64,000 nucleotides of DNA from Zhongshania marina (GTDB lineage Bacteria; Pseudomonadota; Gammaproteobacteria; Pseudomonadales; Spongiibacteraceae). The stretch lies in contig NZ_PQGG01000030.1 of NCBI RefSeq assembly GCF_002915595.1, positions 1 through 64,000 of the forward strand. The letters are read 5' to 3'. The first letter of the stretch is position 1; every line of letters begins with the position of its first letter. The translations under genes and the position numbers were made by a program. Below the pieces are notes generated by a model. It made no database searches. It worked only from the letters and a program-made list of their open reading frames with translations, and was not told the DNA's origin. Of this stretch, positions 44,638-63,889 are shown piece after piece.

Positions 44638-44716
44638 TTGAGCATAAAGGGCACTCATAGTGTACCTCTTGATTCAACAACGACAATATAGACACAAAAT
44701 ATTTTTCAGATAAAAA

Positions 44717-44738: not shown

Positions 44739-44748
44739 CCCACTACAA

Positions 44749-44853
44749 TTATAAAAATTTACCTTTACTTTGCTTTTTTTCTTTCTTCTCCCTACGCTTC
44801 TCTTTAATAGTTTTTAATGCTACTTTTTTCTCATCCACCTTACCTTTACTCAT
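44749..44853 (-). CDS. small lysine-rich protein, 34 residues
   Basis: Reads MSKGKVDEKKVALKTIKEK and continues with Arg/Lys/Glu repeats to KGKFL. It is highly charged, probably one amphipathic helix. An AAAGGTGAT ribosome site stands 5 bases before the ATG, and a strong intrinsic terminator follows the stop, so this is a complete monocistronic gene despite its size. The composition suggests RNA, DNA or membrane-surface binding. I cannot name a family with certainty. Confidence 0.65.
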   Translation of the reverse strand: MSKGKVDEKKVALKTIKEKRREKKEKKQSKGKFL

Positions 44854-44978
44854 TTCATCACCTTTAAAATTATTTAGTTAAAAAACAATTCAACGATGCT
44901 GCCATTCGTCGCCAACATGGACAATATTACTACACTAGCAGCAAGCAATTGCCTTCAAAATACACCCCTCCTTCATAT

Positions 44979-45377: not shown

Positions 45378-45448
45378 AAGACTTAACCCATAGAATCTCT
45401 TCGACTCTAAAATTAAAATTAACTTATAATATATCTATGAATAATTTT

Positions 45449-45475
45449 CCGGATGTAATAGAAAGTTACATCCGG
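45449..45475. repeat. perfect inverted repeat between carbonic anhydrase and the Gre-like gene
   Basis: CCGGATGTAA and TTACATCCGG with a 7-base loop. No T-run follows on either strand. It could be a transcript end or a binding site. The rest of this 292-base gap shows nothing. Confidence 0.55.
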
Positions 45476-45669
45476 CTAAACGAGGAAGGTGAGAGGAGGC
45501 GTTAATACGCGATTGAAATATATAGTCATTTTATTTAAGTGTTTACATTAAATATTCAACATACAAGTATAACCATCTAATTATTTTAAACAAGCCCATA
45601 GCTATTAATATACAAATATCGCCGATATCTTACTCTTTACCGCTATTGTGATTTCATTCACCATTACTA

Positions 45670-46305
45670 TTAAAGAAAATCCCCCACATGATTGTCATAA
45701 AAAAAATCTACGCCACCAGTTTCCAGAGAGTACTCAGCACCAACAACCATAAGCCGGCCATTACCAATAAGTTCTTCAAGTATTGGGGAACCACTACTAA
45801 TATGCTCAACAGAACTTCGAACATTGGCGCGCACACAATGCTTAACTAAATCCTTCTGATTATTGCGCAGCTCTGTAGACAACAATGTTTCAACTGATGG
45901 GCGTATGCGCTTAACAATCGAATGTAGATTGTGAGATGGAATTTCACTCCTACCACTCAGCACCTCAATAGTAGCCGTAATGGCGCCACAACCTGAATGA
46001 CCGAGTACAATCACCAGAGGAGTACCAAAATTTAAAGCAGCGAATTCAATACTACCTATACCAGATGGGGCTACAATATTCCCCGCAACTCGGATCACGA
46101 ACAAATCGCCAAGCCCCTGATCAAATATTAATTCAGCTGGAACACGAGCATCCGAACACCCCAACACAATGGCAAATGGTGCCTGAATTTCAACAAGCTC
46201 AGGACGCTTGCTATTAATATCTCCCGGATAATCGCTACTAACATTCGTGACAAAACGGGTATTACCTTCCTTTAACCTAATTAATGCCTCTTGAGCCGAA
46301 ATCAT
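45670..46305 (-). CDS. can: beta-class carbonic anhydrase
   Basis: Protein of 211 residues from MISAQEALIRLKEGNTRFV, after GAGAGGGAACGC. Zinc ligands are the Cys of LGCSDARVPAE and the His and Cys of LGHSGCGAITA; the Asp-Arg dyad of SDAR is intact. It interconverts CO2 and bicarbonate. It is cytosolic, with no signal peptide. The longer frame to 46371 has no ribosome site. Confidence 0.94.
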   Translation of the reverse strand: MISAQEALIRLKEGNTRFVTNVSSDYPGDINSKRPELVEIQAPFAIVLGCSDARVPAELIFDQGLGDLFVIRVAGNIVAPSGIGSIEFAALNFGTPLVIVLGHSGCGAITATIEVLSGRSEIPSHNLHSIVKRIRPSVETLLSTELRNNQKDLVKHCVRANVRSSVEHISSGSPILEELIGNGRLMVVGAEYSLETGGVDFFYDNHVGDFL

Positions 46306-46623
46306 GCGTTCCCTCTCTTCGTCTATTTTACAAAATCTTCCTGAATTAAACATCATCAACCAACTAACCAATAAAATTCACATGCCAACACTACTCCGCA
46401 ACATATCTACACGCCTGAACCACTCTTAAAAAACCCTTCAAGGCCTGCAACCACTTAGCCATACCACACCAAATATAGACCATTATATATAGTTACACTC
46501 CATGAAAAATACCTGCATTTATTATCAAATTTTATAATGAGTAAACTGATACCAATTTTATAAATTTTAAGCATACAATGCATGACACATAATTATTTCC
46601 AATAATTACGCGGAGGTGTATTA
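46306..46623. other. divergent promoter region
   Basis: AT-rich intergenic region between carbonic anhydrase (minus) and the DUF6306-like gene (plus). No gene and no clear operator. An ACGCGGAGG ribosome site stands before 46624. Confidence 0.45.
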
Positions 46624-47064
46624 ATGAGCACACAGGACTCATTATCAAACAAGGAAATTTTCGACCTACTATTGCAGCTTCTACACGCCGAGCGCGCTGG
46701 AGCAAAAGTTTGCATGCAATCGATACAAGAAGCGCCATCCGATGAGTATCGACAAATCTTATTAGATATTCATCGCGATGAATCAAATTCTTGTGCAGGC
46801 CTGCTTAACAGCATCAAAATAATCGGTGCAACTGCAGACCATAGAGTTGGAGACTTTGCAAAGAAATGCCTGATCATTTCAAATTTTAATGATCGCCTAC
46901 AATATCTCAATCGAGGTCAACAATGGGTCGTGCGAAAAATTGAAGATGCCATAACGAAAATTCATATCAATCAAGTGCAGAGTCAACTAAGAGAAATGCT
47001 CGACGTTCATCGTGACAACGTGACACGAATAGATCAATTTTTAGAGCAGCGTACACCTGACTAA
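46624..47064 (+). CDS. DUF6306-like helical-bundle protein
   Basis: Protein of 146 residues, all-helical, ferritin-like in pattern. HAERAGAKV (helix 1), ILLDIHRDESNSCAGLL (helix 2), RLQYLNRGQQWVVRKIEDAI (helix 3) and MLDVHRDNVTRIDQFL (helix 4) supply Glu, His and Asp that could bind metal. The RLxxLNRGQxWVVRK block is the DUF6306 hallmark as I remember it. Such genes are often near stress or nitrogen functions. Function unknown. Confidence 0.7.
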   Translation: MSTQDSLSNKEIFDLLLQLLHAERAGAKVCMQSIQEAPSDEYRQILLDIHRDESNSCAGLLNSIKIIGATADHRVGDFAKKCLIISNFNDRLQYLNRGQQWVVRKIEDAITKIHINQVQSQLREMLDVHRDNVTRIDQFLEQRTPD

Positions 47065-47156
47065 TTTGTAGTGGCACGCTGCTTACTCTATAAATTAAAT
47101 TTCAGACTAAATATAGTAGCCCAGATCACACAACAACCTCATTTTTACCAAAATCA

Positions 47157-48527
<1,371 letters not shown>

Positions 48528-48796: not shown

Positions 48797-49236
48797 TTAA
48801 ATAGTTATCCTAAATTTTTAATCATACTAAAAGAGTATTAAAATCCTTTATGACTAGCACAAACTGATAGCAACACGCCAGTGTGAAGCTCAGAAAGCCA
48901 ATTCTCGTTAAGGGTGATGTCGTAATTGTTACGCAAAAAACTTATGGTGGTAGCAATTATACTCGTCAGGATGCCGACTGGATGCGAGCGTCCGCCAACT
49001 TAGCTACTCCCAAGAATTGAGCGATATCAGGAAAAGTAGGATTGGCGCTTGAAACAATACAAATCAAGCGCCAAAAACATGTCGAACGCAGATAACGAGT
49101 ATCTTATTCGTAACAATAGAGAGGTATTTAAGGAAAGTTTGATTTTTCATTAGACGATTATGTCACTGGCTATATATTTGTCAAGGAGTCGCGACCACTG
49201 TTTTTCATCGCATATCCCCCTATGTAGCCTATTGCA
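48797..49236. other. intergenic stretch with one possible gene fragment and an inverted repeat
   Basis: On the plus strand a frame from GTG 48883 reads MKLRKPILVKGDVVIVTQK to a stop at 49020 (45 residues). It has protein-like composition but no family or ribosome site, so it may be a fragment. TTGGCGCTTG (49042-49051) and CAAGCGCCAA (49065-49074) form a perfect 10-base inverted repeat. Nothing else seen. Confidence 0.4.
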
Positions 49237-49884
49237 TCAAGCGTCCATTATTGCCTCCTCAAAACTTTTTTGGAAACATAAACATTCATTAATTAACACG
49301 GATAATTGGTGGAGCTGGTTACTATAAGTCATTCTAAGTTGAGCCTCGTCATCCAGAGAATCATTTATCACACATTGAATTCTCAACTTCTGATTACTTA
49401 AGTACTGATATACTGAAAACCCAACATTTCTTTTATATCCTGCCTGCAAGTAAACATATCCTCCTTTACAAACTAAACTATTAACTAATTTAGATATACG
49501 TTTTACAATACTATCAAGGCCTTCTTGGTCGGCAGCTACAACTAATTTAATATGCTCAACTATTTCTAACCAAATATCATTTAAAATAAGCCATTTATCA
49601 ACGCTAGTATCGCAGTCAAAGCATCTAAAAAGCATATAGAATACGCTTTTCAGTTTTAGTGCTATTTCTTGCTCTGCAATGAGTCGCATTCTTTTATCGT
49701 GGTCAACAAATGCAATAATCCATTTAGACTCCCAATATAGATACGATGTTAAAATGTATTCTATTTCTATGTCAGGCAATGCAGGCAACTTGTTCTTAAC
49801 GGTTTCACCTCGCTTATACTTCTTAATCATCTTAGATCCATATAGAGTGACAATTAGCATAAGAAGTATCATTTCCGCATCCAC
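49237..49884 (-). CDS. hypothetical protein, 215 residues
   Basis: GTG start after AGAGGTATTCCC. The N-terminal hydrophobic segment (MILLMLIVTLYGSKMI) may be a membrane anchor followed by KKYKRGETVK on the cytosolic side. The rest is helical and rich in Leu, Ile, Tyr and Cys (RCFDCDTSVDKW, CLCFQKSFEEA). High A+T, unlike the flanking housekeeping genes, suggests acquired DNA. No family recognised. Confidence 0.5.
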   Translation of the reverse strand: MDAEMILLMLIVTLYGSKMIKKYKRGETVKNKLPALPDIEIEYILTSYLYWESKWIIAFVDHDKRMRLIAEQEIALKLKSVFYMLFRCFDCDTSVDKWLILNDIWLEIVEHIKLVVAADQEGLDSIVKRISKLVNSLVCKGGYVYLQAGYKRNVGFSVYQYLSNQKLRIQCVINDSLDDEAQLRMTYSNQLHQLSVLINECLCFQKSFEEAIMDA

Positions 49885-49960
49885 GGGAATACCTCTATAT
49901 ACCAGAATTTATCCACCTTAATACTTTTTTCATGATTAAAGTAAATGAAAAATTACTAAA

Positions 49961-49987
49961 TTTAATATCATTATCGTTGATATTAAA
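49961..49987. promoter_or_regulatory. perfect 10-base inverted repeat upstream of a membrane-protein gene
   Basis: TTTAATATCA and TGATATTAAA with a 7-base spacer containing TTATCG. The repeat lies about 200 bases before the 50187 gene. The ATTATC element resembles half a Fur box, so Fur or a dedicated regulator could bind. Confidence 0.5.
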
Positions 49988-50095: not shown

Positions 50096-50186
50096 TAGGT
50101 ACATCTTGCTTTCCTATATAACGGCAATCCGACTACCAAGGCGCTGCCGCCTCAAAACCACCATAAAATATTGGAGAACATTTACT

Positions 50187-51110
50187 ATGTCTAATTTATC
50201 ACAATACGGTATTCCTCCTGGGCTCCCCCCCAACGTCAAGCCCCTGCCTGCAGGCTTTGAAGCAGGGGCTGCCAATGAATGGATATTTTTCTTTGTATGC
50301 GGGGCTGCAGTTGTAATTTTCGCGTTACCATGGGCATTGAAAGCCGCAGCGAAAAAAAACTACATCCCACTATTAGTGATGTTAAGCGGCTTAATTTGCT
50401 CGCTAGAAGAAGCGATGCTCGATATGCTGGGCCACCTGCACTGGGCGGACGACCTCATCCCTGTTTATACAAACTTTGGGATCACAGTCCCACTACTTAT
50501 TCCTCTATGCTATGTCGCCTTTCTCGGCTTGCAATCTTACTTCTGCTATTTTGTTATTCGTAATGGCGCTACCTTTAAGCATTTTGTATTACTCTTAGCA
50601 ATGGGCGGCATTTTAGACGCCATTATGGAGACTATAGGGATTAATCTTAACGTGTATGAATATTATGGTATTCAACCATTCACGCTATTTGGGTTCCCTT
50701 ACTGGTGGGCATTTATCAATAGCGCCTCATTTGTAACGGTTGGATGCATTTTGGCTTATGCTGTGCCCCGCCTCACCGGCTGGAAACAACTGCTAATATT
50801 ATTGGCAGCCCCTTATGGCATGGCCATGACCTATTTCACGGTAGGGTGGATACATATTCTTGCGCACAACTCAGGACTGCCTGAATGGGCTCGCTGGGGT
50901 GCGGCAGCAATCATGATGATTGAGTGCGTTTTCTACATGAAACTTCTACATTACTTATTCGGCGCAAAAGACAAAGAACCCACAGCCAACTGGACGCTCA
51001 TGAGAATGCTCCAATACACTATGATTCCTAGCGCGGCGAGGAATCGGCTATGGCAAAAAATGGCCGAAGAAGGCGGGCTGCCAAAGGATCGTCACACAGC
51101 AGCTTACTAA
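50187..51110 (+). CDS. multi-pass inner-membrane protein, unknown family
   Basis: Protein of 307 residues. After the soluble start MSNLSQYGIPPGLPPNVKP come about eight membrane helices (EWIFFFVCGAAVVIFALPWAL, IPLLVMLSGLICSLEEAMLDML, FGITVPLLIPLCYVAFLGLQSY, HFVLLLAMGGILDAIMETIG, WAFINSASFVTVGCILAYAV and others). Acidic residues inside helices (CSLEEAMLD, ILDAIMETIGIN) and His residues (GHLHWADD, WIHILAHN) could bind metal or a cofactor. The start is fixed by TTGGAGAACA. Monocistronic, with two palindromes upstream and a hairpin downstream. Not recognised. Confidence 0.6.
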   Translation: MSNLSQYGIPPGLPPNVKPLPAGFEAGAANEWIFFFVCGAAVVIFALPWALKAAAKKNYIPLLVMLSGLICSLEEAMLDMLGHLHWADDLIPVYTNFGITVPLLIPLCYVAFLGLQSYFCYFVIRNGATFKHFVLLLAMGGILDAIMETIGINLNVYEYYGIQPFTLFGFPYWWAFINSASFVTVGCILAYAVPRLTGWKQLLILLAAPYGMAMTYFTVGWIHILAHNSGLPEWARWGAAAIMMIECVFYMKLLHYLFGAKDKEPTANWTLMRMLQYTMIPSAARNRLWQKMAEEGGLPKDRHTAAY

Positions 51111-51223: not shown

Positions 51224-51400
51224 ACATTAAATATAGTCAGGGAAATTGCAGTCATAACCATCTATTTACCAGTCGTGTCATCATGTGAGAGGGCTCATTT
51301 ACACTTATAAGAAATCCAACCTTCTACACCATATTGCAAACCCCATGCTCGATGTAGCGTATCTTTTCTTCTTTTATTATTAGAGGACAACTATTACTAC

Positions 51401-52246
51401 CTAGAACTCTCCATGCCCCGCAACTTCTACAGCACAACTTAGTGCCTCTAATGCAATACCCATCAATTTAGATGCATTACCGCGAGAATATATAACATAT
51501 ATCGGATAGCTGAATTCCGGTACGCCATCCATGCGCTCAACAAGACCGCTATCAATATATGGCTTAACCACTCGGCTCCTAAAGTACCCGCTGCCGCCGT
51601 GACAAGCTAAATGTTCCAAAGCTAGAGGGCCATAATCTACATATAAATCGCTACGGCACAGCTCTGGAAGAGCGGCATCATGCTGGCGACAGAAATGCTC
51701 ACCCCAATCTACATATATATACGGATCTGCACTCTTTACCGACTTCACTTTGATTAACTTTTCTTCTAATACTTGCTCTGCCTGGATACCTGGCCAGTAA
51801 TCCGGTTGATGAACAAGCGCGGCATCTAACACGCCACGCTCGATTTTTTCATGAAGACTCGAGCGCTCCGCCACCTCTATTCGAACACCTACATCGCCTT
51901 TATTAATTCTCAATTCATGCAGCCATTCCAATAGCAGAGGATTCCAAAGGCTCGCCTCCCCACCCAAAGTTAAGATCGTATCTGCTCCCTTTGGGAGAGG
52001 AAGCTCTCTACGAGCCACTTCCCACACTTGAACCAATTGGCTCGCATGGGAAATAAATCGCTCACCATCATTAGTAACCTTTGCTCCCGCTCGATTACGA
52101 ACAAACAATCTACAACCCAATTGCCCTTCAAGGTTTCTGATCCGGGCAGTAACAGTAGTTTGAGTAACATGCAGACGTTCACCTGCAGCAATGAAACTAC
52201 CTGTTTTAACTATTTCAAGAAAAGTCCGTGCAAGTTCAATATCCAT
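51401..52246 (-). CDS. LysR-family transcriptional regulator
   Basis: Protein of 281 residues. The helix-turn-helix is ELARTFLEIVKTGSFIAAGERLHVTQTTVTARIRNLEGQLGCRLFVRN. The effector domain is short and differs from CysB, which is longer (about 324 residues) with its own signature. It is divergent from the cysJ-like gene across 106 bases, so it should control the sulfur/pyruvate operon. The inducer is unknown. Confidence 0.9.
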   Translation of the reverse strand: MDIELARTFLEIVKTGSFIAAGERLHVTQTTVTARIRNLEGQLGCRLFVRNRAGAKVTNDGERFISHASQLVQVWEVARRELPLPKGADTILTLGGEASLWNPLLLEWLHELRINKGDVGVRIEVAERSSLHEKIERGVLDAALVHQPDYWPGIQAEQVLEEKLIKVKSVKSADPYIYVDWGEHFCRQHDAALPELCRSDLYVDYGPLALEHLACHGGSGYFRSRVVKPYIDSGLVERMDGVPEFSYPIYVIYSRGNASKLMGIALEALSCAVEVAGHGEF

Positions 52247-52352
52247 AAGTCTCTATCAATATTTTTCAATTAAACTGACATTATATTTCATTATTCATCA
52301 AAATATCTGCTTGTCATACTGTCAGAAATATAATCTGAAAGCAGTACTTTCA

Positions 52353-54086
52353 ATGCAAGCACCTAACCATATATTTTCAAAACAGCAGTGGCGCGAACTA
52401 CACAGCTTACTCAATGAACTAGATGGCAAACAATCATTGTGGCTAAGCGGCTACCTTGCAGCCACTGCAATAGAATCAACAGCGACTGAAAACAGTACCG
52501 ATCTAAACATTCCGCTAATTGCATTTGGCACCGAGACTAATAATTGCAAGCAACTTGCCTACCTATTCGGCGACTTATGTCGCAAGTCTGGAGTCAATGT
52601 AGATGTTTCCGACCTTTCAGACATCAAACCCCGAGCATTAAACAAACGAGATCATTTTTTAGTCATCACTTCAACTCACGGTGATGGCGCCCCCCCTGAG
52701 CCGATAACACCTTTTTATGAAGCACTATTCAGCAACGAAGCACCTAAACTTAATAATATCAAATTTTCTGTACTAGCTTTAGGCGATAGCAGCTATGAGA
52801 AATTCTGCGCTACCGGTATACAAATTGATCAGCGCTTAGAGGAGCTAGGTGCTCACCGCTTTTTACCACGACAAGATTGTGATGTTGACTATGAAGAATC
52901 TGCAAAAAAATGGATGGCATCACTACTGACGTTACTTCCCAGAAGTTCAAAGAACTCTAGCGATAAACTACATTTAAGCATACCGATCGAGTCTACCGAA
53001 TGCAGTATAAGTAATCCCTTCACTCTTGAAGTACTATCAAATTTGAATCTTAGCAGCAAAAGTAGAAACGAACCCATTCACCACCTTGAGCTAGCGATCG
53101 GCTCCAATACCATCTCTGTCGAACCAGGGGATGCAGTAGGCGTTTATGTTGCCAATCCACCCGAACTTGTAGCGGCATTATTAGATGCGACCGGTCTCTC
53201 CGGTGAGCACCCGGTGACACTAGATGGTCATGCTCTTCAACTAGTTGAAGCATTAAGGGAGCACCGCGATCTAACCATCCCGAGCTTAGCACTTTTAGAA
53301 TATTGGTCTAATTTAACGAACGATGCGGAACTAACTACCATTGCAAACAGCGCAAAACCAGATCAACGCCGTTATTTACGCACAATACAAGTGTCAGATC
53401 TGATAATTAAGTGGCCCGCCCATCCAGACCCACAATCCCTAATTAATACATTGCGCCCATTACAGCCGCGGCTATATGACGTAGCTAATTCGCTTTCAGC
53501 AATCGATGATGAGATTCACCTTACTGTCAAAATGTATAGATATCCATTTGGAAAACGCAGAGAGGAAGGTATTGCGTCACGATTCCTGCTTGAATTACAG
53601 CCCGGTGATAGCATTACACTTTACCCCCACCAAAATGCTCGGTTCCACTTACCAAAGGACAAAACCACCCCTGTAATTTTCTTTGCCGAAGGCACAGGTA
53701 TCGCACCCTACCGAGCCTTTATTCAAAAATTATCAACTCTGGAACAAGCACCTCAATGTTGGCTGCTATTTAAAGAACAACACTTTGAAGAAGACTTTCT
53801 TTATCAGATTGATATTCAACGAGCTCACATCAATAGCGTTATCACCCACATAGACACTGTATTTTACGACGATAGCTGCGAAGCCACACTGCATTCAATC
53901 GCTCTCAAAAATGAGCAACGACTCATGTCGTGGATCGACAAAGGAGCACACCTCTACTTTTGCGGAAATAGAGCCACTTTAGAGCACTGCGAGTCCCAAT
54001 TAAAACGACATTACGATTTTTGTTTAGGCGAAGGAAAGTGGACGTCTCTTTCTAAAAGTAAGCGTATCCATCGCAACCTATACTAG
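52353..54086 (+). CDS. cysJ: sulfite reductase flavoprotein (CysJ-like)
   Basis: Protein of 577 residues. A flavodoxin domain (FGTETNNCKQLAYLFG, STHGDGAPPEPITPFYEAL, LALGDSSYEKFCATG) is followed by a CPR-type FAD/NAD(P) module (PRLYDVANS, AEGTGIAPYRAFIQ, HLYFCGNRATLE, ending SKRIHRNLY). It would pass electrons to CysI. Two departures from E. coli CysJ: RxYS becomes RLYD, and the SRxxxKxYVQ segment that binds the NADPH 2'-phosphate is replaced by YDDSCEATLHS. NADH or another donor is therefore possible. I start at ATG 52353; the upstream frame overlaps the lysR gene. Confidence 0.87.
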   Translation: MQAPNHIFSKQQWRELHSLLNELDGKQSLWLSGYLAATAIESTATENSTDLNIPLIAFGTETNNCKQLAYLFGDLCRKSGVNVDVSDLSDIKPRALNKRDHFLVITSTHGDGAPPEPITPFYEALFSNEAPKLNNIKFSVLALGDSSYEKFCATGIQIDQRLEELGAHRFLPRQDCDVDYEESAKKWMASLLTLLPRSSKNSSDKLHLSIPIESTECSISNPFTLEVLSNLNLSSKSRNEPIHHLELAIGSNTISVEPGDAVGVYVANPPELVAALLDATGLSGEHPVTLDGHALQLVEALREHRDLTIPSLALLEYWSNLTNDAELTTIANSAKPDQRRYLRTIQVSDLIIKWPAHPDPQSLINTLRPLQPRLYDVANSLSAIDDEIHLTVKMYRYPFGKRREEGIASRFLLELQPGDSITLYPHQNARFHLPKDKTTPVIFFAEGTGIAPYRAFIQKLSTLEQAPQCWLLFKEQHFEEDFLYQIDIQRAHINSVITHIDTVFYDDSCEATLHSIALKNEQRLMSWIDKGAHLYFCGNRATLEHCESQLKRHYDFCLGEGKWTSLSKSKRIHRNLY

Positions 54087-54095
54087 GAATTAATT

Positions 54096-55805
54096 ATGTA
54101 TCTAAATACTAAATTACCCAGTCAACCAATAGATAATCTTCATGAAAATGAAAAATTAAAAGCGACTAGTCGACATCTACGTGGAAACATCTCAAATGGA
54201 TTAGATAACCCCATTACCGGCGCAGTTCCTGGGGACGACCATCTTTTAATGAAATTCCATGGCGTCTATCAACAAGATGATCGAGATTTACGAAATGAAC
54301 GCCGTCAAAGGTACTTAGAAAAACTTTATCAATTCATGGTTCGCCTTCGTATACCCGGGGGCGTACTTACCAAAGATCAATGGCATGGACTCGATATTTT
54401 ATCAAGGCGATTTGCTGAACGAGGAATACGTATTACAACACGTCAAACAATACAGTTTCATGGCATTCGAAAGCGGAAATTGCGAGCACTCATGCAAGGA
54501 ATTCATAATCTAGGCTTAGATACTATTGCTGCATGTGGCGATGATAATCGTGGCGTTGTTTGTGGAGCAAATCCGTGCCTATCCGCACTAAATAAGCAAG
54601 TTAGCGAACTTGCTAAAGAGACAAGCAACCGCCTCATTCCAAAAACCGGCGCATACTCTGAGATATGGTACCAAAAACCCACAGTTAAAACCGATAACGA
54701 AGAACCTATTTACGGTGATTTATATTTGCCCCGAAAATTTAAGGTAGGCTACGCTATACCTCCCATCAATGACATAGATGTATACGGCCAAGACGTTGGT
54801 TACATTGCCATAATAGAAAACGGTGCACTTACTGGTTTCAACGTTTGCGTAGGTGGCGGTATGGGACAATTAGATGCAAGGACCGACAGCTATCCTAGAC
54901 TAGCCGATCTAATCGGGTTTATTGAGGCCGATAAAGCACCACGGCTTGCCGAGACGATAATGACCATACAGCGAGACTTTGGTGATCGGATAGACAGACA
55001 CCGTGCGCGCTTCAAATACACCCTAGACCGACTGGGATTAGATTGGTTTAACAATGAGCTAACTGCGCGTTTTGGCGAGACCTTGGGCTTACCACGCCCA
55101 TTCAAATTTGAACAAAATGGAGACAAATTAGGCTGGCATCAGGCTGATGATGGTCTTTGGCATACGACTATATATATCGAAAATGGCCGAATTGATGGCG
55201 CACTTCGTGATCAGTTATCTGGATTTTTTCAGTTTTACGGCGGACGCATTAGGCTTACCACCAATCAAAATTTGCAACTTACCCACATTGCCGATTACGA
55301 AAAGAGTCAAATACAATCACGCCTAGACGACCTCGATCTACTATGGCGATTAACACCACATCATCAAGCTAATCATCTTATAAGCTGTGTAGCATTACCC
55401 ACCTGCGGCTTAGCCATGGCCGAAGCGGAGCGCTACATGCCAAGATTATTAGATCTATTCGAGCGTTTAAAGGCACGTCACGGTGTAAACGACATTCCTA
55501 TCACAATACGACTTACTGGTTGCCCCAATGGCTGCGCCCGCCCCTATTTAGGTGAAATCGCCCTTACTGGCCGAGCACCTGGATTATACAATCTCTATTT
55601 AGGTGGCAGTTTTCATGGCGATCGTTTAGCGACTCTTTACGCTAGTAATATTGATGAGGAAACCTTCTCCATCTTACTTAGCCCATTACTCGAACACTAC
55701 AGTAATGAACGTTTGACCAACGAGCACTTTGGCGATTTTTTAGTTCGCCAAAACTTGCTAGATTCTCAATGCACATCCGTCAACCTAGGAACTCCCAATG
55801 TCTAA
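54096..55805 (+). CDS. cysI: sulfite reductase hemoprotein, beta subunit (CysI)
   Basis: Protein of 569 residues, the size of E. coli CysI. The siroheme/4Fe-4S ligands are present as CVALPTCGLAMAEAERYMP (C-x5-C) and TGCPNGCARPYLGEI (C-x3-C). The duplicated sirohaem-domain starts FHGVYQQDDRDLRNER and RLTTNQNLQLTHI, and the substrate Arg/Lys region RITTRQTIQFHGI, are intact. It reduces sulfite to sulfide with six electrons. It starts 9 bases after cysJ and overlaps the first DsrE-like gene by 8. Confidence 0.95.
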   Translation: MYLNTKLPSQPIDNLHENEKLKATSRHLRGNISNGLDNPITGAVPGDDHLLMKFHGVYQQDDRDLRNERRQRYLEKLYQFMVRLRIPGGVLTKDQWHGLDILSRRFAERGIRITTRQTIQFHGIRKRKLRALMQGIHNLGLDTIAACGDDNRGVVCGANPCLSALNKQVSELAKETSNRLIPKTGAYSEIWYQKPTVKTDNEEPIYGDLYLPRKFKVGYAIPPINDIDVYGQDVGYIAIIENGALTGFNVCVGGGMGQLDARTDSYPRLADLIGFIEADKAPRLAETIMTIQRDFGDRIDRHRARFKYTLDRLGLDWFNNELTARFGETLGLPRPFKFEQNGDKLGWHQADDGLWHTTIYIENGRIDGALRDQLSGFFQFYGGRIRLTTNQNLQLTHIADYEKSQIQSRLDDLDLLWRLTPHHQANHLISCVALPTCGLAMAEAERYMPRLLDLFERLKARHGVNDIPITIRLTGCPNGCARPYLGEIALTGRAPGLYNLYLGGSFHGDRLATLYASNIDEETFSILLSPLLEHYSNERLTNEHFGDFLVRQNLLDSQCTSVNLGTPNV

Positions 55806-56124
55806 TTACCTATTCATCCAAAGCCAAGATCCTTTCACGGAAACAAGCACAAGCAATCAGTATCGACTTGCTCAAGATCTACTGCTCGCCGGTAACACCG
55901 TCACCGTACTACTTGTTCAAAACGGTGTAATGCCTGCTAGACAGAAGGCTATCTCAAAAGAATTTGATGCCCTTTTGAATTCAACTGTCGTCGTCATCGC
56001 TGACAAATTTTCTTTACAACAAAGAGAAATATCTAATAACGAACTTAAAAATAATATTTATGTTGGAACATTAGAGCATGCCATCGACGCTCTACTTGCT
56101 GGTCACAAAGTTATTTGGAACTAG
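55798..56124 (+). CDS. DsrE-fold protein 1
   Basis: Protein of 108 residues: MSNYLFIQSQDPFTETSTSNQYRLAQDLLLAGNTVTVLLVQNGVMPAR is a DsrE/TusD-like beta-alpha-beta core, and YVGTLEHAIDALLAGHKVIW closes the fold. There are no cysteines, so it cannot itself carry a persulfide; it may be a structural subunit. It overlaps cysI by 8 bases. Confidence 0.75.
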   Translation: MSNYLFIQSQDPFTETSTSNQYRLAQDLLLAGNTVTVLLVQNGVMPARQKAISKEFDALLNSTVVVIADKFSLQQREISNNELKNNIYVGTLEHAIDALLAGHKVIWN

Positions 56125-56132
56125 GAGAAACT

Positions 56133-56552
56133 ATGAAAAGTACTAATGAACAAACATTAACATTTGCGTTCATGGATCCACCCTTTGAAAGTGAGAGAAC
56201 GGTAACATTCTTCCGCCTTCTGGATGCTGCACTTGATAAAGGTGCGAATATAAGAGTGTTTGCATACGAAGGTGCTGTATCTTTGTCACTTTCCTTACAA
56301 AAGGCCCATGGTAATTCGATTCATGGCAGAAACGCCGAAGAAGAAGACCACCCTTTGAGCAAAGATTGGATATCTAGCCTACAACATAAAGCAGCTAGCA
56401 ATAATTTGAAGTTTGAGTGGATTAACTGCGGACTTTGCGTCGACGAAAGAGGCGTCACCGATGTTATTGAAGGGTGCAACCGAGGAGGTCCTCCAGACCT
56501 TTGGCGATATGCTAGTGAATCACTAAACACCCTAACAATAGGAACGAGGTAG
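56133..56552 (+). CDS. DsrE-fold protein 2, with conserved cysteines
   Basis: Protein of 139 residues from MKSTNEQTLTFAFMDPPFESERTVTFFRLLDAALDKGANIRVFAYEGAV, a DsrE-like core. The C-terminal part has WINCGLCVDERG and IEGCNRGGPPDLWRY; the CxxC-like pair and third Cys are candidate sulfur carriers, at the position where DsrE-family proteins hold the persulfide Cys. A CTAGGAGAAACT site precedes the ATG. It is the only Cys-bearing member of the three. Confidence 0.77.
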   Translation: MKSTNEQTLTFAFMDPPFESERTVTFFRLLDAALDKGANIRVFAYEGAVSLSLSLQKAHGNSIHGRNAEEEDHPLSKDWISSLQHKAASNNLKFEWINCGLCVDERGVTDVIEGCNRGGPPDLWRYASESLNTLTIGTR

Positions 56553-56557
56553 GCCGA

Positions 56558-56938
56558 ATGAAAGTACTACAAGTTATTGACCAAGCCTTTCGCACAACAA
56601 CAGAAGAACAGGACGACACAATACTTTGGCTTACTCGATCCATGCGTAGTGTAGGTGGCGAACTCACAGTATTACTGGCTGGGCACGGCACAAATTACGC
56701 GGTTCTAAAAACTGCTCAGCCTTCTCTCACTCTAGGGAAATGGCATCAAAGCCAACCCGCTGATTTACCAAAGGACATCAATCAATTAATCGATAGTGGT
56801 GTGCCCGTATTTATTATTGAGGAAGACTTTATCGAACGCGGCTTACAACGACAATCTATTATCCAAGGCGTACAAACGATAGCACGACATAATTTACCAG
56901 TACTTTACGAACACGCCGACCAGGTGTGGCAATGGTAA
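56558..56938 (+). CDS. DsrE/DsrH-like protein 3
   Basis: Protein of 126 residues: MKVLQVIDQAFRTTTEEQDDTILWLTRSMRSVGGELTVLLAGHGTNYAVL, then IDSGVPVFIIEEDFIERGLQ and LPVLYEHADQVWQW. The DxVWQW ending and EED..ERG motif are typical of the third DsrE-like partner (TusB/DsrH-like). It lacks Cys. It starts 5 bases after protein 2 and overlaps the flavin enzyme. The three together would form a DsrEFH-like hetero-oligomer. Confidence 0.72.
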   Translation: MKVLQVIDQAFRTTTEEQDDTILWLTRSMRSVGGELTVLLAGHGTNYAVLKTAQPSLTLGKWHQSQPADLPKDINQLIDSGVPVFIIEEDFIERGLQRQSIIQGVQTIARHNLPVLYEHADQVWQW

Positions 56939-57921
56939 AAACTACCTCGCCTCTACATACCCCACTTTGTGACTTACTAGGCTGTCAATTTCCTATTATG
57001 CTTGCGGGAATGGGAGGCGTAGCTAGGCACCGCCTCGCAAGCGCCGTTGCTAACGCCGGCGGATTTCCAGTACTTGGCATGGTACGCGAACCTTGCGAGC
57101 GCATGCGCTTCGAAATAGCCGCACTCAAACAGCAATGTATTACTCCCTTTGCAGTCAATCTCATTCCTGCGGCAACAGATGCCAGCCTGCTTAAAGCACA
57201 AGTAAGTTTATGCATAGAACTAAATGTTCCATTTATAGCATTATTCTGGGATATCGATAAAAAACTGATTCACCAATTAAAGTTTGAAGGATGTAAAATT
57301 ATCCATCAAGTCGGTAATCTCGAGGACGCTGAAGCCGCATTAGATGCAGGAGTTGACGTCCTCATAGCACAAGGGCAAGAAGCCGGAGGACATGTACGCG
57401 GCAAAGTCAGCAGTCTCCCCCTCTTAGCAGAATTACTTCCAATAAGTCCTATACCGGTTGTAGCCGCTGGTGGCATAGGCAATGGTAAATCAATCGCCGC
57501 AGCACTAACTCTTGGCGCCCAAGGTGTAAGTTTAGGTACTGCTTTTTTAGCGACTACTGAGGCTAATGCCCATGAGCATCACAAGCAGCGGATCATCAAA
57601 GCAAATGCCAACGATACCGTTTACACCACTCAGTTTCACCGCAATTGGCATGAACCTGCTCCAGTAAGAGTACTTGCAAACGCTATCACTCGAGGGGAGC
57701 GTATAGACTCGAGCAAACAAGATCATCCTATTGTAATTGGCTATCAAGACAATCAATCCATACATCTCTGTTCCACAGACTCTCCGCTAACTGATGCTAT
57801 AGGTGCCATCGATGATATGGCGCTTTATTCCGGTCAATCGTGTGGTCAGATAGCGAAAGTAACTAGTGTGAAACAAAGAGTCGACACACTGGTTACAGAA
57901 GCCAAATTGGCGCTGAAATAG
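56932..57921 (+). CDS. nitronate monooxygenase-like FMN protein (NPD family)
   Basis: TIM-barrel FMN enzyme of about 329 residues: CDLLGCQFPIMLAGMGGVARHRLASAVANAGGFPVLG, PFAVNLIP, AQGQEAGGHVRG, VVAAGGIGNGKSIAAALTLGAQGVSLGTAFLATTEA. NPD enzymes oxidise nitronates, but relatives include enoyl reductases (FabK) and uncharacterised catabolic oxidoreductases. The His of EAGGH, the usual catalytic base, is present. ATG 56932 or 56926 may be used. Linkage to DsrE proteins suggests a sulfur-related or acyl substrate rather than a nitro compound. Confidence 0.85.
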   Translation: MVKTTSPLHTPLCDLLGCQFPIMLAGMGGVARHRLASAVANAGGFPVLGMVREPCERMRFEIAALKQQCITPFAVNLIPAATDASLLKAQVSLCIELNVPFIALFWDIDKKLIHQLKFEGCKIIHQVGNLEDAEAALDAGVDVLIAQGQEAGGHVRGKVSSLPLLAELLPISPIPVVAAGGIGNGKSIAAALTLGAQGVSLGTAFLATTEANAHEHHKQRIIKANANDTVYTTQFHRNWHEPAPVRVLANAITRGERIDSSKQDHPIVIGYQDNQSIHLCSTDSPLTDAIGAIDDMALYSGQSCGQIAKVTSVKQRVDTLVTEAKLALK

Positions 57922-58078
57922 CCCTAAATGATATCCCTAGAGATTATCTCAAAAACTGGAGAACAGTAATTTTCTTAAATTGCAGCGAAGAAAACCTACT
58001 TACACCGTACTCCACATTTAAATTTTTATTCACACAAAACTTATATTACGCAATTCCTTAAAGGGAGATCCACCCATC

Positions 58079-60736
58079 ATGCTTCTCGACAGTGATCCTC
58101 ACGAAACAAAGGAGTGGCTTGACGCTTTAGATTCCGTTATCCAGTTTAATGGTCAAGAACGAGCGCACTTTCTTGTTTCTCACCTCATTGATAAGGCGAC
58201 ATCATCAGGGATTCCACTGCAAAATGCAGTTACTACCCCCTTTCATAATACTATTGCGCCCCATCAGGAAAAATTAATGCCAGGCGACCTTTTTATGGAA
58301 CGCCGTATTCGTTCGCTAATTCGCTGGAACGCGCTCGCCATGGTAGTTAGGGCAAACACCAAAAATTCCGGAATCGGTGGTCATATAACAACTTTTTCCT
58401 CCTCAGCTACCTTATATGACATAGGCTTTAATTATTTTTTCCATGGCCGTGGGTCAGGTCATCTTGGTGATTTAGTTTACTTTCAAGGACACAGCTCCCC
58501 CGGAATCTATGCCCGCTCTTTTTTAGAGGGTCGCCTAACCGAGGAGCAACTGGAAAACTTTCGTTTAGAAGTCGACGGTAACGGCCTTTCTTCATACCCC
58601 CATCCTTGGTTGATGCCTGACTATTGGCAGTTCCCTACCGTGAGTATGGGTCTCGGTCCTATCCAAGCAATTTATCAAGCGCATGTTATGCAATATCAAC
58701 ACAGCCGCGGATTAATAGACCAAAATAATCGCAAGGTTTGGTGCTTTTTAGGGGACGGAGAATGTGATGAACCTGAATCTTTAGGTGCGATTTCATTAGC
58801 GGGTCGCGAAAAGCTCAACAACCTCATATTCGTCGTCAACTGTAATCTGCAGCGCCTAGACGGTCCAGTACGCGGCAATGGAAAAATAATACAAGAACTT
58901 GAAGGAGTGTTTCGCGGCGCGGGTTGGAATGTCATCAAAGTAGTATGGGGCCGACTATGGGATCAGTTATTGAAAAAAGACACCACTGGCTTACTCCTGC
59001 GCCGTATGGACGAAGTGGTTGACGGCGAATTACAGAATTACAAAGCCAACGGTGGAGCCTACACTAGGGAACATTTTTTCGGCAAATACCCTGAATTACT
59101 TGAATTAGTCAAAGACCTCTCTGACGATGAAATCATGTATCTTAATCGTGGCGGTCATGACCCATATAAAGTATACGCCGCATACGCAAACGCGATCGAG
59201 ACGAAGGACAAGCCAACCGTAATACTAGCTATGACGGTAAAGGGCTACGGTCTGGGTAGTAGTGGCGGAGAGGCACAAAACGAAGCCCACTCAGTAAAAA
59301 GTTTAGACATGGATGAAATGAAACGTTTCAGGGATCGCTTCGATATACCGATTAGCGATGAAGATCTTGTTAATGTCCCATATTACCGACCGCCAAATGA
59401 CAGCCCTGAAATCCAGTATATGCATGCCCAACGCCAAAAACTAGGCGGTTATTTACCAGCAAGAGTATCGGATTATGATTCTTTAACGGTTCCGGATCTC
59501 ACTAAATTTGAAAGCCAGCTTACAGGTACGGGGACTAGAGAAATATCCTCAACAATGGCCTTTGTTCGTGTTTTATCTACGCTAATAAAAGACAAAAATA
59601 TAGGCAGCAAAATCGTACCTATCGTGCCGGATGAGGCGCGCACTTTCGGCATGGAAGGCATGTTCCGACAACTTGGAATCTATTCATCACAAGGTCAGCG
59701 TTACACTCCGCAGGATGCCGGACAGATCATGTATTACAAAGAATCAAAAGAAGGTCAAATACTAGAGGAAGGCATTACTGAAGCTGGCGCCTTCTCTGCT
59801 TGGCTTGCGGTGGGAACATCTTATGCCAACCATAAAATGCCATTAATTCCATTTTACATATTTTATTCTATGTTTGGATTTCAACGAGTGATGGATCTCT
59901 GCTGGGCTGCCGGTGACTCTCAAGCTAGGGGATTCCTCATCGGTGGCACATCCGGACGCACCACCTTGAACGGAGAAGGCTTGCAACACCAAGATGGCCA
60001 TAGTCATCTGCTAGCGAATATGATCCCAAATTGCGTATCTTATGATCCGACCTACTCATACGAGGTAGCCGTGATTATCCAAGATGGCATTAAACGCATG
60101 TATCACAACAAAGAAAACATTTTCTACTATATAACCGTAATGAATGAAAACTACCCCCACCCAGTAATGCCAACCGGCTGCGAAGCCAACATCATTAAAG
60201 GCTTGTATAAGATACAGGGCATGACCGACGAGACATCCAAATTAAAAGTTCAATTACTAGGCAGTGGTGCCATTTTACGAGAAATTGAAGCAGCCGCTGA
60301 GATTCTCAAAGAAAATTACAATGTAGACGCGAACGTATGGAGTGCAACCAGTATTAATCAATTGCAACGTGACGGTATGGATTGCGAACGTTGGAATAGG
60401 CTTCATCCGTTAGAATCCCCCAAGACTTCTTTTGCTAGCCAGCAATTAAACCAAATAAATGCACCAGTAATATGTGCCACTGATTACATTAAAGCCTACG
60501 GAGAACAATTACGACCCTACATTAATTGCCGTTACGTGGTACTTGGCACTGATGGATATGGACGCTCTGACACTCGCCAAAAATTACGTGAGCATTTTGA
60601 AGTCGATCGCAAACACATCGTCGCGGCTGCCTTAAAGTCTCTAAGCGACGACGGAGTAATTACGGCGACTGAAGTAAACCAAGCCATCATAAACATGGAA
60701 ATTGAAACTAACGGTTTAAACCCACTTTATAAATAG
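58079..60736 (+). CDS. aceE: pyruvate dehydrogenase E1 component, homodimeric AceE type
   Basis: Protein of 885 residues, nearly the E. coli length (887) and alignable throughout by eye: ERRIRSLIRWNALAMVVRAN, GDLVYFQGHSSPGIYARSFLEGR, GNGLSSYPHPWLMPDYWQFPTVSMGLGP, the ThDP motif FLGDGECDEPES..NCNLQRLDGPV, DEARTFGMEGMFRQ and LNGEGLQHQDGHSH. It decarboxylates pyruvate and acetylates the E2 lipoyl group. A GGGAGATCC site precedes the ATG. It follows the flavin-enzyme gene by 157 bases on the same strand, which may hold an additional promoter. Confidence 0.96.
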   Translation: MLLDSDPHETKEWLDALDSVIQFNGQERAHFLVSHLIDKATSSGIPLQNAVTTPFHNTIAPHQEKLMPGDLFMERRIRSLIRWNALAMVVRANTKNSGIGGHITTFSSSATLYDIGFNYFFHGRGSGHLGDLVYFQGHSSPGIYARSFLEGRLTEEQLENFRLEVDGNGLSSYPHPWLMPDYWQFPTVSMGLGPIQAIYQAHVMQYQHSRGLIDQNNRKVWCFLGDGECDEPESLGAISLAGREKLNNLIFVVNCNLQRLDGPVRGNGKIIQELEGVFRGAGWNVIKVVWGRLWDQLLKKDTTGLLLRRMDEVVDGELQNYKANGGAYTREHFFGKYPELLELVKDLSDDEIMYLNRGGHDPYKVYAAYANAIETKDKPTVILAMTVKGYGLGSSGGEAQNEAHSVKSLDMDEMKRFRDRFDIPISDEDLVNVPYYRPPNDSPEIQYMHAQRQKLGGYLPARVSDYDSLTVPDLTKFESQLTGTGTREISSTMAFVRVLSTLIKDKNIGSKIVPIVPDEARTFGMEGMFRQLGIYSSQGQRYTPQDAGQIMYYKESKEGQILEEGITEAGAFSAWLAVGTSYANHKMPLIPFYIFYSMFGFQRVMDLCWAAGDSQARGFLIGGTSGRTTLNGEGLQHQDGHSHLLANMIPNCVSYDPTYSYEVAVIIQDGIKRMYHNKENIFYYITVMNENYPHPVMPTGCEANIIKGLYKIQGMTDETSKLKVQLLGSGAILREIEAAAEILKENYNVDANVWSATSINQLQRDGMDCERWNRLHPLESPKTSFASQQLNQINAPVICATDYIKAYGEQLRPYINCRYVVLGTDGYGRSDTRQKLREHFEVDRKHIVAAALKSLSDDGVITATEVNQAIINMEIETNGLNPLYK

Positions 60737-60758
60737 GCCTACACAAAAGGATCTCAGG

Positions 60759-62057
60759 ATGGCTACTCAAACAATTGAAACACCAGACCTAGGCAATGAT
60801 CAGGCCGCCGAAGTCATTGAGATCTGTGTTATGGCTGGCGACAGTGTCACCGAAGGTGATCCTCTCATTGTCTTAGAGTCTGATAAAGCCTCAATGGAAA
60901 TACCCTCACCATTAAGCGGCGTAATCCAGGAACTCAAAGTCAAAATTGGAGACAGTATCCAAAAAGGCAATATTATTGCAGACATAAAGGTAGCTAATCA
61001 GCCACCGTCTACTGAAAATAAATGCATAAAAGATGATGCGGCTGATGACCAAATACGATCCAACAGTGAATTTAATAGTCCAGCCGTACCACCATCTAAT
61101 GACCTTTGCGGCCCGCTCTCTGACAAGCCTATGCCGATCGATGCCAATAATAGTACCACCGAGATATACGCAGGGCCTGCAGTTCGAAAACTTGCGAGAG
61201 AGCTCGGTATTGATTTGAAAGAAATAGACTCCAGCGGCCCTAGAAATCGTATTATTAAAAAAGACATACACACTTATGTAAGAAAAATTATTTCCGGCAA
61301 CAGCATACAAAATATCGCCCCTAACCTATTGGCGACACCAGATATTGATTTTTCAAAATTTGGATTAATAGATGTATTTTCACTCAGCGAGAAAGATAAA
61401 ATAACCGCATCCACACACCACCAACACTGGTATAGCACACCTCATGTCACGCAGTTCAACGAAGTAGACATTAGCGATTTAGAGAATTTTCGACACTCTC
61501 TTCATAAGGAAGCTACACGCCGTAATATTAAATTAACATTGACGCCATTTATCCTTATGGCAACGGCATCAGCTATAAAACAAAACACTAAATTTACCGC
61601 GTCACTTAGCTCGGATAATGAAAAAATAATTTATAAAAAATTCATTAATATTGGTGTCATCGTAAATACAGCAGGCGGATTAATTGTCCCCGTACTCAGA
61701 GAGGTAGACCAAAAATCCATTTTTAAATTAGCAGAAGAATTGACACAACTCACACTTAAATCCCAAAATCAACCACTAACACAGGATGATATAGATGGCA
61801 GCTGTTTCACTATTTTTAATTTAGGGAAATATGGTGGTAACGGATTCACCTCCATCATTAATTTCCCAGAACCTGCCATTCTTGGTATTTCTCAGTTCAA
61901 TATCAAGCCTATGTGGAACGGCCAATGCTTCCAGCCACGAACAATACTCCCACTATGTCTTAGCTATAACCACAAACTAATCAACGGTGCGGAAGCTGGA
62001 AAATTTTTAACAGACTTAAGCACCACATTGGCAGATGTGCGTAAGTTGCTCCTCTGA
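60759..62057 (+). CDS. aceF: dihydrolipoamide acetyltransferase E2 (AceF), single lipoyl domain
   Basis: Protein of 432 residues: one lipoyl domain (residues 1-75, with the lipoylated Lys in VLESDKASMEIPSP), a polar linker, the E1/E3-binding domain (AGPAVRKLARELGIDLKEIDSSGPRNRIIKKDIHTYV, about residues 138-175), and a catalytic domain from about 210. The active-site motif reads LSYNHKLINGAEAGKF where the family has DHRxxDG: the His is kept, but the Asp/Arg flanks and the second Asp are Asn, Lys and Asn. No E3 (lpd) gene follows. E. coli AceF has three lipoyl domains. Confidence 0.92.
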   Translation: MATQTIETPDLGNDQAAEVIEICVMAGDSVTEGDPLIVLESDKASMEIPSPLSGVIQELKVKIGDSIQKGNIIADIKVANQPPSTENKCIKDDAADDQIRSNSEFNSPAVPPSNDLCGPLSDKPMPIDANNSTTEIYAGPAVRKLARELGIDLKEIDSSGPRNRIIKKDIHTYVRKIISGNSIQNIAPNLLATPDIDFSKFGLIDVFSLSEKDKITASTHHQHWYSTPHVTQFNEVDISDLENFRHSLHKEATRRNIKLTLTPFILMATASAIKQNTKFTASLSSDNEKIIYKKFINIGVIVNTAGGLIVPVLREVDQKSIFKLAEELTQLTLKSQNQPLTQDDIDGSCFTIFNLGKYGGNGFTSIINFPEPAILGISQFNIKPMWNGQCFQPRTILPLCLSYNHKLINGAEAGKFLTDLSTTLADVRKLLL

Positions 62058-62150
62058 CACTGTTTAATCAATAGCCTACACCCTTATTAGAGATACTTTC
62101 ATGATGCTGCGGTACTGATAGAGATGTAATTCGCATGTAACGTCACTGGA

Positions 62151-62178
62151 AAATTGTAAAGCAATATTTACAATTTTT
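62151..62178 (+). terminator. intrinsic terminator after aceF
   Basis: AAATTGTAAA and TTTACAATTT form a perfect 10-bp stem with a 6-base loop, running into further T residues. It lies 94 bases after aceF and closes the operon. Confidence 0.72.
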
Positions 62179-62228: not shown

Positions 62229-63889
62229 TTAAGATTTTTCTCGACTATCAGGCCAACGAATATGACGAGACCGATCTTCTTTTGACGAAACCGATCGAGA
62301 ATGAGCTTTGATAATGTCACTCCGCGTGATGACTCCCCTTACCACATTGGAGGCACTTGGTACGACAACGACAAGTCGTCCAACCCCCATTCTTACCATC
62401 TGATCCGCCGCTTGCCGCAAAGTGCTACCCGCAGCAATAACGATCGGCGGCCGTCGAATCAAGTCAGCTACCAACGCATCACCAAGAATATCCAGTCGCC
62501 AAATATCTCGACGTGTCACGACACCTTGTAAATACCCATGAGCATCGATCACCGGAAAGCCCTGGTGGTGCGTAGACGCCATATTACCTGAAAGCCAATC
62601 TCGAACTTCCGCCACCCGTTGCTCGTCCCGAAGCGATACAACGTCTTGGCTATATACACTTGCGACATTCACTTGATCTAATGGATCGGCCGAATATTGA
62701 TCCGGCACAGTGACACCACGACGGCTAATTTTTTCCGTCATAATTGTCGTCCGCATAAACAGCGACGAGGTTAAATAGGCAAGGCCACAACCGCCCAGCA
62801 GCGGCAGCAAGCTATTCGGCTGATGTGTAACTTCCAGCGCAAAAACAATGGCTGTAAGCAGGGCTCTTGAGGAGCCAGCGAACATCGCTGCCATCCCGAC
62901 TAATCCCGCCAATTCAGGGCTTACCCCCCACTGAGGAAAAACACCTACCAGCCATATAGCCAAACCTCCGCCCAGTGAACCGCCAATAATAAATAGCGGC
63001 GCCAATGTACCACCAGAAGTACCACTACCAAGCGCAATAGACCAAGATAGCCACTTAGCAAACCCCAAGAGCGCCAAGGCTGATAACGCCAAGTTTCCAT
63101 TAATAATGTCTGAAATCAGGTCATAGCCAACGCCCATAGTCTGCGACACCCAATAACCAACTAAGCCAACAGCGAGCCCACCCAGTGCCGGCCACCACAT
63201 CCAATGCAAGGGTAGACGCTCAAACCCGTCTTCAATCCAGTAAAGCCCCCGTGTTACCACCACACTAGCGCCACCAAGGAGCACACCCAATAAAACATAA
63301 AAAAGTATCGCCGCCGTGCTTGGTACCACGACTGTAAACATAGCGAATACGGGCTCAGATCCAAGTAGTAAAAAGCGACTACTCGTTGCGGCAACGGTGG
63401 CAATAATGACTGGCAATAATGACCGGCTATGAAATTCAAATAGTAATAACTCTACCGCTAACAAGACCGCCGATAAGGGCGCTGAAAACACCGCTGCCAT
63501 TCCCGCTGCCGCGCCCGCAGCCAACAACACTTTTCGTTCAAGCGCGGTAATATGCACCAGCTGCCCAAGTAACGAACCCAGCGCGCCATCACACCAATAA
63601 TAAGTCCACCCAGCACAGGAATAAGTATGACCCAAGCCCCCAGATGGTGGCCTGCAGGTGAAATCTCTCGAGTAGAAATGCGGCCGTAGAAAAACAACTG
63701 CGCGAAGAAGTGAATTAAATCAATTAATAACTTGGCCACCGGCGCAGCAAGCAAGCCCAGACCCAGCGCAAGAAAACACACCCAAAGTAATCTGCGCCCT
63801 GACATCGCGGCAGATTGGACTTGGTTATCTAGGGACAATGCAGGCATTGATGGTGAAACGGGGATAGACGTAGGCCTTGGTTTAGTCAT
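62229..63889 (-). pseudogene. ClC-family chloride channel/transporter with CBS domains, internally deleted
   Basis: The N-terminal frame from 63889 reads MTKPRPTSIPV..., then LLWVCFLALGLGLLAAPVAKLLIDLIHFF and VLGGLIIGVMARW. At about 63580-63588 the reading frame changes and the protein resumes as GALGSLLGQLVHITALERKVLLAAGAAAGMAAVFSAPLSAVLLAVELLLFEF, on through the membrane part and two CBS domains (HHQGFPVIDAHGYLQGVVTRRD; MGVGRLVVV...GVITRSDI). Between the two blocks a normal ClC has about 60 residues with the GxGIPE and GxFGAEGPIIATG selectivity-filter motifs. They are missing, so no working channel can be made. Confidence 0.82.

Follow-up and report, generated by a model that had tools for sequence, protein, structure and literature searches.

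Why should genes for a sulfite reductase, three DsrE-like proteins, a flavoprotein and a pyruvate dehydrogenase stand together in one block? The question is raised by contig NZ_PQGG01000030.1 (C24; 75.4 kb in total) of Zhongshania marina (assembly GCF_002915595.1; 4.13 Mb in 46 contigs), of which positions 1 to 64,000, subsequently designated the window, were analyzed. The block comprises nine genes: lysR, cysJ, cysI, the genes for the DsrE-like subunits D1, D2 and D3, a gene of the nitronate monooxygenase (NMO) family, aceE and aceF. All of them had been named in the original prediction for this DNA, and all were found to be present by means of open reading frames (ORFs) and Pfam/NCBIfam models. 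The answer that we favor is tentative and carries slightly less than even weight: the block would represent an acquired module for sulfite reduction and persulfide relay, which is tied to nitric oxide (NO) stress and to which a spare pyruvate dehydrogenase was added in Zhongshania.

The cysJI-DsrE gene unit and its distribution

The gene for the LysR-type regulator (51401–52246, minus strand; Pfam HTH_1 and LysR_substrate) diverges from the operon, which lies on the plus strand beyond an intergenic region at 52247–52352. The CysJ-like NADPH flavoprotein (52353–54086) carries Flavodoxin, FAD and NAD-binding domains and reaches 475.9 of the 668 bits set by TIGR01931. The ATG at 52353 is its likely start, because a start at 52191 would make the ORF overlap lysR and most relatives align only from about residue 61. 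The CysI-like siroheme sulfite reductase subunit follows at 54096–55805. Next come D1 (55798–56124; PF02635 above cut-off), the DsrE/TusD-like D2 (from a TTG at 56115 or an ATG at 56133 to 56552; Pfam DsrE above cut-off), D3 (56558–56938; DsrE fold of the predicted model) and the NMO-family protein (56926–57921; PF03060, 177 bits). The latter had been described as a flavin oxidase; it is indeed a flavin mononucleotide protein, but of the nitronate monooxygenase/FabK-like kind, and its 188.9 bits remain far below the curated FabK cut-off of 453.1. The block is completed by paralogues of AceE, the E1 component of pyruvate dehydrogenase (58079–60736; TIGR00759 above cut-off), and of AceF, an E2 component with one lipoyl domain (60759–62057; Biotin_lipoyl, E3_binding and 2-oxoacid_dh). 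AceF, like CysJ, stays under its equivalog cut-off. The genes from cysJ through the NMO gene are tightly spaced; 157 bases separate the NMO gene from aceE, and co-transcription of aceEF is therefore not shown by the spacing.

When one genome was scanned per species, 168 relatives of D2 were confirmed, the best 80 of which were examined as named loci (L037 and L042 belong to one metagenome-assembled genome (MAG); L025, located on the same contig as L029, was left uncounted). D1 is encoded beside D2 in 79 of the 80 loci and D3 in all 80, each being partial in one locus (L085 among them), and the trio therefore constitutes a unit. It is preceded by cysJ and cysI in 27 named loci and also on a Methylophaga plasmid. 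The divergent lysR accompanies 25 of these 27, the contigs of the other two being cut inside cysJ, and an NMO-family gene is found in 22, its absence being confined to the five Methylophilaceae. Since the order cysJ-cysI-D1-D2-D3 recurs in other genera, it is not due to chance. Thus, the gene content of the conserved unit and its nature as a module are secure: a divergent lysR, then cysJ-cysI-D1-D2-D3, usually followed by an NMO-family gene, a linkage that the original prediction had anticipated. Among 57 sampled relatives, D2 is present in two, the Z. marina genome and one of its 17 congeners; 369 genomes of the class include four with D2, Z. marina again being one of them. The aceE gene accompanies the module in just 1 of the 27 loci, from another Zhongshania, besides the window; together with its distribution within the genus (2 of 18 genomes) this rules out aceEF as a member of the conserved unit.

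The reductase itself consists of a hemoprotein of the SiRHP type with siroheme and a 4Fe-4S cluster and an NADPH flavoprotein partner, which places it in the CysJI family of NADPH sulfite reductases. In a PDB search CysI scored 503 bits to E. coli SiRHP vs. 112 bits to NirA, and it passed NF010029 (681 bits, cut-off 457) while missing TIGR02041 (664 of 757). By the PDB scores it is of the E. coli sulfite reductase type. When 29 CysI proteins linked to the trio and 29 others were placed in a tree, a single branch separated both sets with support of 99/96; the tree is rooted at the midpoint, includes two sequences with unusual composition (L084 and L037), and its members were selected by CysI for the other proteins and by D2 for the trio-linked ones. 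The short loci around the 29 other CysI contained no match to D1 or D2. CysI matches occur in 49 of the 369 class genomes, the best besides the own protein being 52% identical to it, and the 27 trio-linked CysI proteins are 50–98% identical to it, 26 of them at least 59%. Within the trio-linked clade Alcanivoracaceae, Methylophilaceae, Methylophaga, Halieaceae and Zhongshania intermingle. These mixed families suggest horizontal transfer, and the cysJI-trio operon has thus presumably been moved horizontally, one branch of the trio passing between bacterial families along with its own CysJI. No description of a cysJI-trio operon was found in the open literature searched, to which subscription papers are mostly external.

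The remaining 53 named loci carry the trio without cysJI and stem from cyanobacteria, various proteobacteria, Planctomycetota, an Acidobacteria MAG and others. Seven of them hold a gene of the metallo-beta-lactamase fold, putatively of the persulfide dioxygenase type, which according to Pfam is fused to a rhodanese in L076 and L078 and unfused in L075. The surroundings of the unit vary in further ways. Most Methylophaga loci have a gene of the ccoN type between D3 and the NMO gene, and in two Methylobacillus loci (L049, L050) a ccoN-type gene and further small genes are located 2–3 kb downstream of D3. A DUF488 gene recurs near the NMO gene (L030–L036, L038, L040, L043, L045 and L084, where it is positioned between D3 and NMO). 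In a Symploca MAG (L060, about 10400–11850) an ORF resembling a transposase by eye separates D2 from D3. The DsrE trio is also retained by the cyanobacterial endosymbionts of the diatoms Rhopalodia and Epithemia (L054, L056, L059). Two copies reside on plasmids (L023, L024): the Methylophaga cysJI-trio has cadR, a cation transporter and ISPpu12 in its vicinity, and metal ATPases and merB adjoin a Paraburkholderia trio. Both contexts might hint at a function connected with heavy metals; a similar P-type ATPase is also present in L032 and L033.

The DsrE trio and related sulfur systems

D1 and D2 clear the Pfam DsrE cut-off, while D3 has no Pfam match. Structure prediction of the monomers gave the DsrE/TusD fold for D2 and D3; D1 is assigned by Pfam only. 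Within the trio, an invariant CxxC motif is confined to D2, in which C99 and C102 (numbered from the ATG at 56133) are kept in 53 of 53 aligned rows. No conserved Cys column was found in D1, with at most 3 Cys in any column of 32 rows (32 of 56 available rows were aligned; L063, which has an in-frame stop, and L080 were dropped), nor in D3, with at most 16 Cys in 54 rows. The D2 profile had no match among PDB sequences, and the D1 profile matched the protein adjoining the own TusD at 1.8% probability. From fold and motif, the trio is likely a divergent sulfurtransferase of the DsrEFH/TusBCD kind. CysJI would reduce sulfite to sulfide, and Cys99 of D2 would carry sulfur as a persulfide to an acceptor, for which the housekeeping TusE is one candidate. 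The invariant CxxC makes plausible the sulfur relay through the second DsrE protein that had been proposed earlier. No TusA- or DsrC-like neighbor was detected by motif among ORFs of 70–129 amino acids within 9.5 kb of D2.

Like DsrEFH type I of Allochromatium vinosum and TusBCD, the trio consists of three adjacent subunits of the DsrE type. It differs from these in that identity to DsrE is about 20%, D3 lacks a conserved Cys, the gene for the catalytic subunit is the middle one, and the partner is CysJI instead of DsrAB. Moreover, Cys20 of A. vinosum DsrH, which is needed for sulfur oxidation, is unmatched by any conserved Cys in D1 or D3. The type II DsrEFH of cable bacteria (YTD cluster) is likewise a DsrEFH-like trio with sequences remote from those of type I and, in the accessible text of PMC13293266 and PMC13047784, adjoins yeeE and tusA and mostly reductive dsrAB; the trio loci described here have no TusA motif nearby. 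Assimilatory NADPH-dependent CysJI shares both subunits and the siroheme reductase family with the block, but the block CysI falls into a separate clade and is linked to a DsrE trio and a LysR of its own. DsrEFH complexes are usually taken as markers of dissimilatory sulfur metabolism. The divergent DsrEFH-like trio described here occurs widely in organisms which are not known to live in that way.

Nitric oxide genes near the module and competing explanations

Genes related to NO (hmp, NsrR-type, NnrS, NorB, NorR and NirK) were sought by tblastn in loci of unequal length. Of 28 records with cysJI (one plasmid besides the 27 named loci), 12 contain such genes, compared with 3 of the 54 trio-only records (53 named loci and one plasmid; Fisher p = 8e-5); the three hits in the latter group (L068, L075, L098) are unchecked matches that may represent other genes. 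Examples of NnrS, NorB, NorR and NirK were confirmed with family models, and the varied NO genes recur across genera. A search of 25 core genomes, all of the 27 except L033 and L042, showed that 20 have hmp in single copy and 18 have NnrS; the distance to the trio is at most 9.5 kb for hmp in 5 genomes and for NnrS in 4. Both figures are far above a chance estimate that assumes random positions and a single genome size of 3.6 Mb. In Z. marina, an hmp gene (438 bits, cut-off 432), an Rrf2 gene and a gene for an extracytoplasmic function sigma factor are located past the window, at 66.8–69.3 kb of the contig.

The Hmp, NsrR, NnrS and Nor defense genes are thus recurrent neighbors of the cysJI-bearing trio; unlike members of the NsrR regulon, however, the operon has no NsrR-type site detected and possesses its own LysR. 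The lysR-cysJ gap contains a conserved TATTTCATTATT at 52284–52295, which with up to two mismatches occurs in 21 of 27 such gaps compared, as opposed to a mean of 1.4 and a maximum of 6 in base shuffles; the pattern was picked from the same gaps in which it was counted. We regard it as a candidate LysR site. No copy precedes aceE, the window holding one exact match and one with three mismatches where 1.4 are expected. The best match to an NsrR consensus on the 75.4-kb contig is a palindrome in the gap between hmp and the Rrf2 gene. As no NsrR-like site was found at cysJ or aceE, the operon is probably controlled by its own LysR.

Several observations weigh against a link to NO. None of the matches listed in the mismatch scan of the contig with the NsrR consensus falls at cysJ or aceE, and simple NsrR, FNR/DNR and NorR patterns were absent from the lysR-cysJ gaps and from the region before aceE, although the same patterns missed the hmp site, too. 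The Rrf2 protein is closest to NsrR but reaches 119 bits vs. a cut-off of 182. Within the stretch covered, 16 of the 28 cysJI records have no NO gene; when three syntenic Alloalcanivorax/Alcanivorax loci are counted as one, 3 out of some 11 genera have hmp close to the trio, and the related genomes in these counts are not independent. CysI, with siroheme and an Fe-S cluster, may itself be sensitive to NO. As to the relay, C99 of D2, set against the active Cys78 of DsrE/TusD, lines up with the Cys of the own-genome TusD at a profile probability of 6%. All in all, the tie of the module to NO is probable but circumstantial, and its chemistry and regulation are inferred. According to the explanation that we favor, the module would maintain sulfide and persulfide to protect thiols and repair Fe-S clusters when the usual enzymes are poisoned by NO.

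Among the competing explanations, a plain second assimilatory sulfite reductase that travels with a sulfur-handling trio, the NO genes being neighbors through shared genomic islands only, is unlikely. Every enzyme belongs to a known family, and the operon has its own LysR with no site for an NO regulator detected; yet the trio-linked CysI proteins form a separate clade and distinct NO genes recur in distinct genera. We consider it improbable that CysJI mainly reduces nitrite, hydroxylamine or NO to ammonium, which glutamate dehydrogenase would take up, with the NMO protein freeing nitrite from nitronates and the trio supplying or repairing sulfur sites. The proximity of NO genes, an NMO-family gene present in 22 of the 27 loci and an NADP glutamate dehydrogenase gene 4 kb upstream of the block (also in 2 of the 27 loci, the close relatives L032 and L033) would fit, as would the siroheme requirement of NO detoxification in Aspergillus fumigatus indicated in the accessible text of PMC6240589. 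However, CysI is far closer to sulfite than to nitrite reductase by the bit scores given above, and the fold of the trio is that of a sulfurtransferase, while in other loci persulfide dioxygenase-like genes are found in its vicinity. These genes, in 7 of the 53 trio-only loci, whose product would be sulfite, together with the resemblance of a siroheme reductase plus DsrEFH-like complex to dsr gene sets, speak for the reverse direction, in which the trio delivers persulfide for CysI to oxidize to sulfite, the way DsrAB operates in sulfur oxidizers, in a small aerobic route for disposal of sulfane sulfur. Against this, CysJ is a donor from NADPH to siroheme and no DsrC- or TusA-like neighbor was seen by motif, and we judge such a route very improbable.

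We give hardly any credence to the sulfur-carbon pathway of the original prediction, in which sulfite and pyruvate derived from a sulfonate or another C-S compound would be processed by CysJI, the DsrE proteins and AceEF, with the lipoyl group as sulfur acceptor. It is true that cysJI-trio-NMO adjoins aceEF on the same strand in both Zhongshania genomes that bear the block, and that sHdr systems, according to the accessible text of PMC12423496, employ a lipoate-binding protein in oxidation of sulfane sulfur. As the module is usually found without aceEF, this idea loses its main support, and AceEF as a part of the sulfur system has to be given up. Furthermore, the sole lipoyl protein of the block is a full E2 with a catalytic domain, and the ten block proteins scanned include no sHdr protein and no small lipoate-binding carrier as in sHdr-LbpA. 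None of the 31 upstream ORFs scanned (at least 150 amino acids; window 1–48.5 kb) matched a Pfam family of sulfonate enzymes, a search limited to this part of the genome, and the recurrent neighbors are genes of NO detoxification.

A wider form of the NO-linked explanation is rather unlikely: a third kind of DsrEFH-like complex together with an assimilatory-type sulfite reductase would make up a Dsr-like module of aerobic heterotrophs. By turning sulfite into protein-bound persulfide and back, this module would buffer sulfur under NO stress; in Zhongshania it would be carried by an island whose spare enzymes tolerate NO. If the NO link is true, the module offers a testable gene set with which crosstalk between sulfide/persulfide and NO defense could be studied in marine hydrocarbon degraders and methylotrophs, and genes that at present are called just “DsrE family protein” would gain a role.

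The second pyruvate dehydrogenase and the Zhongshania island

A check for further copies of reductase and aceEF in the genome yielded both. Contig C37 encodes an AceE 75% identical to that of the block, with an AceF carrying two lipoyl domains. Another siroheme reductase is encoded with a DUF934 protein on contig C4; its NCBIfam scores are under every equivalog cut-off, and it would be the usual sulfite reductase. Elsewhere in the genome are one PAPS reductase-family match (C37), TusD and a TusE/DsrC-family protein (C21) and MetH (C4). The second siroheme reductase, the second aceE-aceF and the ordinary TusD and TusE rule out that the block merely holds the housekeeping copies.

A close second AceE is found in 2 of the 18 genomes of the genus, the two with the block (G000 and G005). 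Two others, G015 and G016, have additional AceE copies of about 50% identity, that of G016 being interrupted (contig C3, 391983–395593). From this distribution, aceEF appears to be a local addition in Zhongshania rather than a partner in sulfur chemistry. Two contigs of congener G005 match the region at 92–97% over window positions 37049–47072 and 51390–62058 and contig positions 66573–69308, and at 83% over 49172–49986 of the window. The stretch at 62.1–66.6 kb, with a chloride channel and an acyl-CoA dehydrogenase, is missing in G005, and that of the glutamate dehydrogenase falls between its two contigs. Full-length MetE occurs in 3 of the 18 genomes (the own one, G005 with 99% and G007 with 72% identity), a fourth having a weak partial match; full-length Hmp matches occur in 4, two of which are only 40 and 47% identical.

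B12-dependent MetH is sensitive to NO. In Salmonella, pyruvate dehydrogenase is inhibited by reactive nitrogen species, which also bring about a need for methionine, as stated in the accessible text of PMC6221366. For both reasons, AceEF and MetE may act as spare enzymes under NO. The Zhongshania island would thus unite the module with hmp, the NsrR-like gene and other spare enzymes, i.e. AceEF, a backup for an NO-sensitive housekeeping pyruvate dehydrogenase, and B12-independent MetE.

On the shared island, positions 38309–41670 of the window hold a LysR-type gene and the gene for B12-independent MetE, despite MetH on another contig. Upstream of the block, carbonic anhydrase and NADP-specific glutamate dehydrogenase are encoded at 45670–48506. 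An ORF resembling a membrane protein (50106–51110) has no Pfam or NCBIfam match and is absent from this place in G005. An Rfam scan of 36–64 kb and a tRNA scan of the window gave no match. Of the single terminator that had been suggested behind aceF, an AT-only hairpin with a T run stands at about 62151–62178, but it has no entry in the terminator consensus scan and folds no better than shuffles (z = -0.63). Further downstream, a ClC chloride channel gene on the minus strand is split over two frames (62229–63635 and 63458–63889), which points to a frameshift or an assembly error, since L035 and L036 each have the homologue as one uninterrupted ORF.

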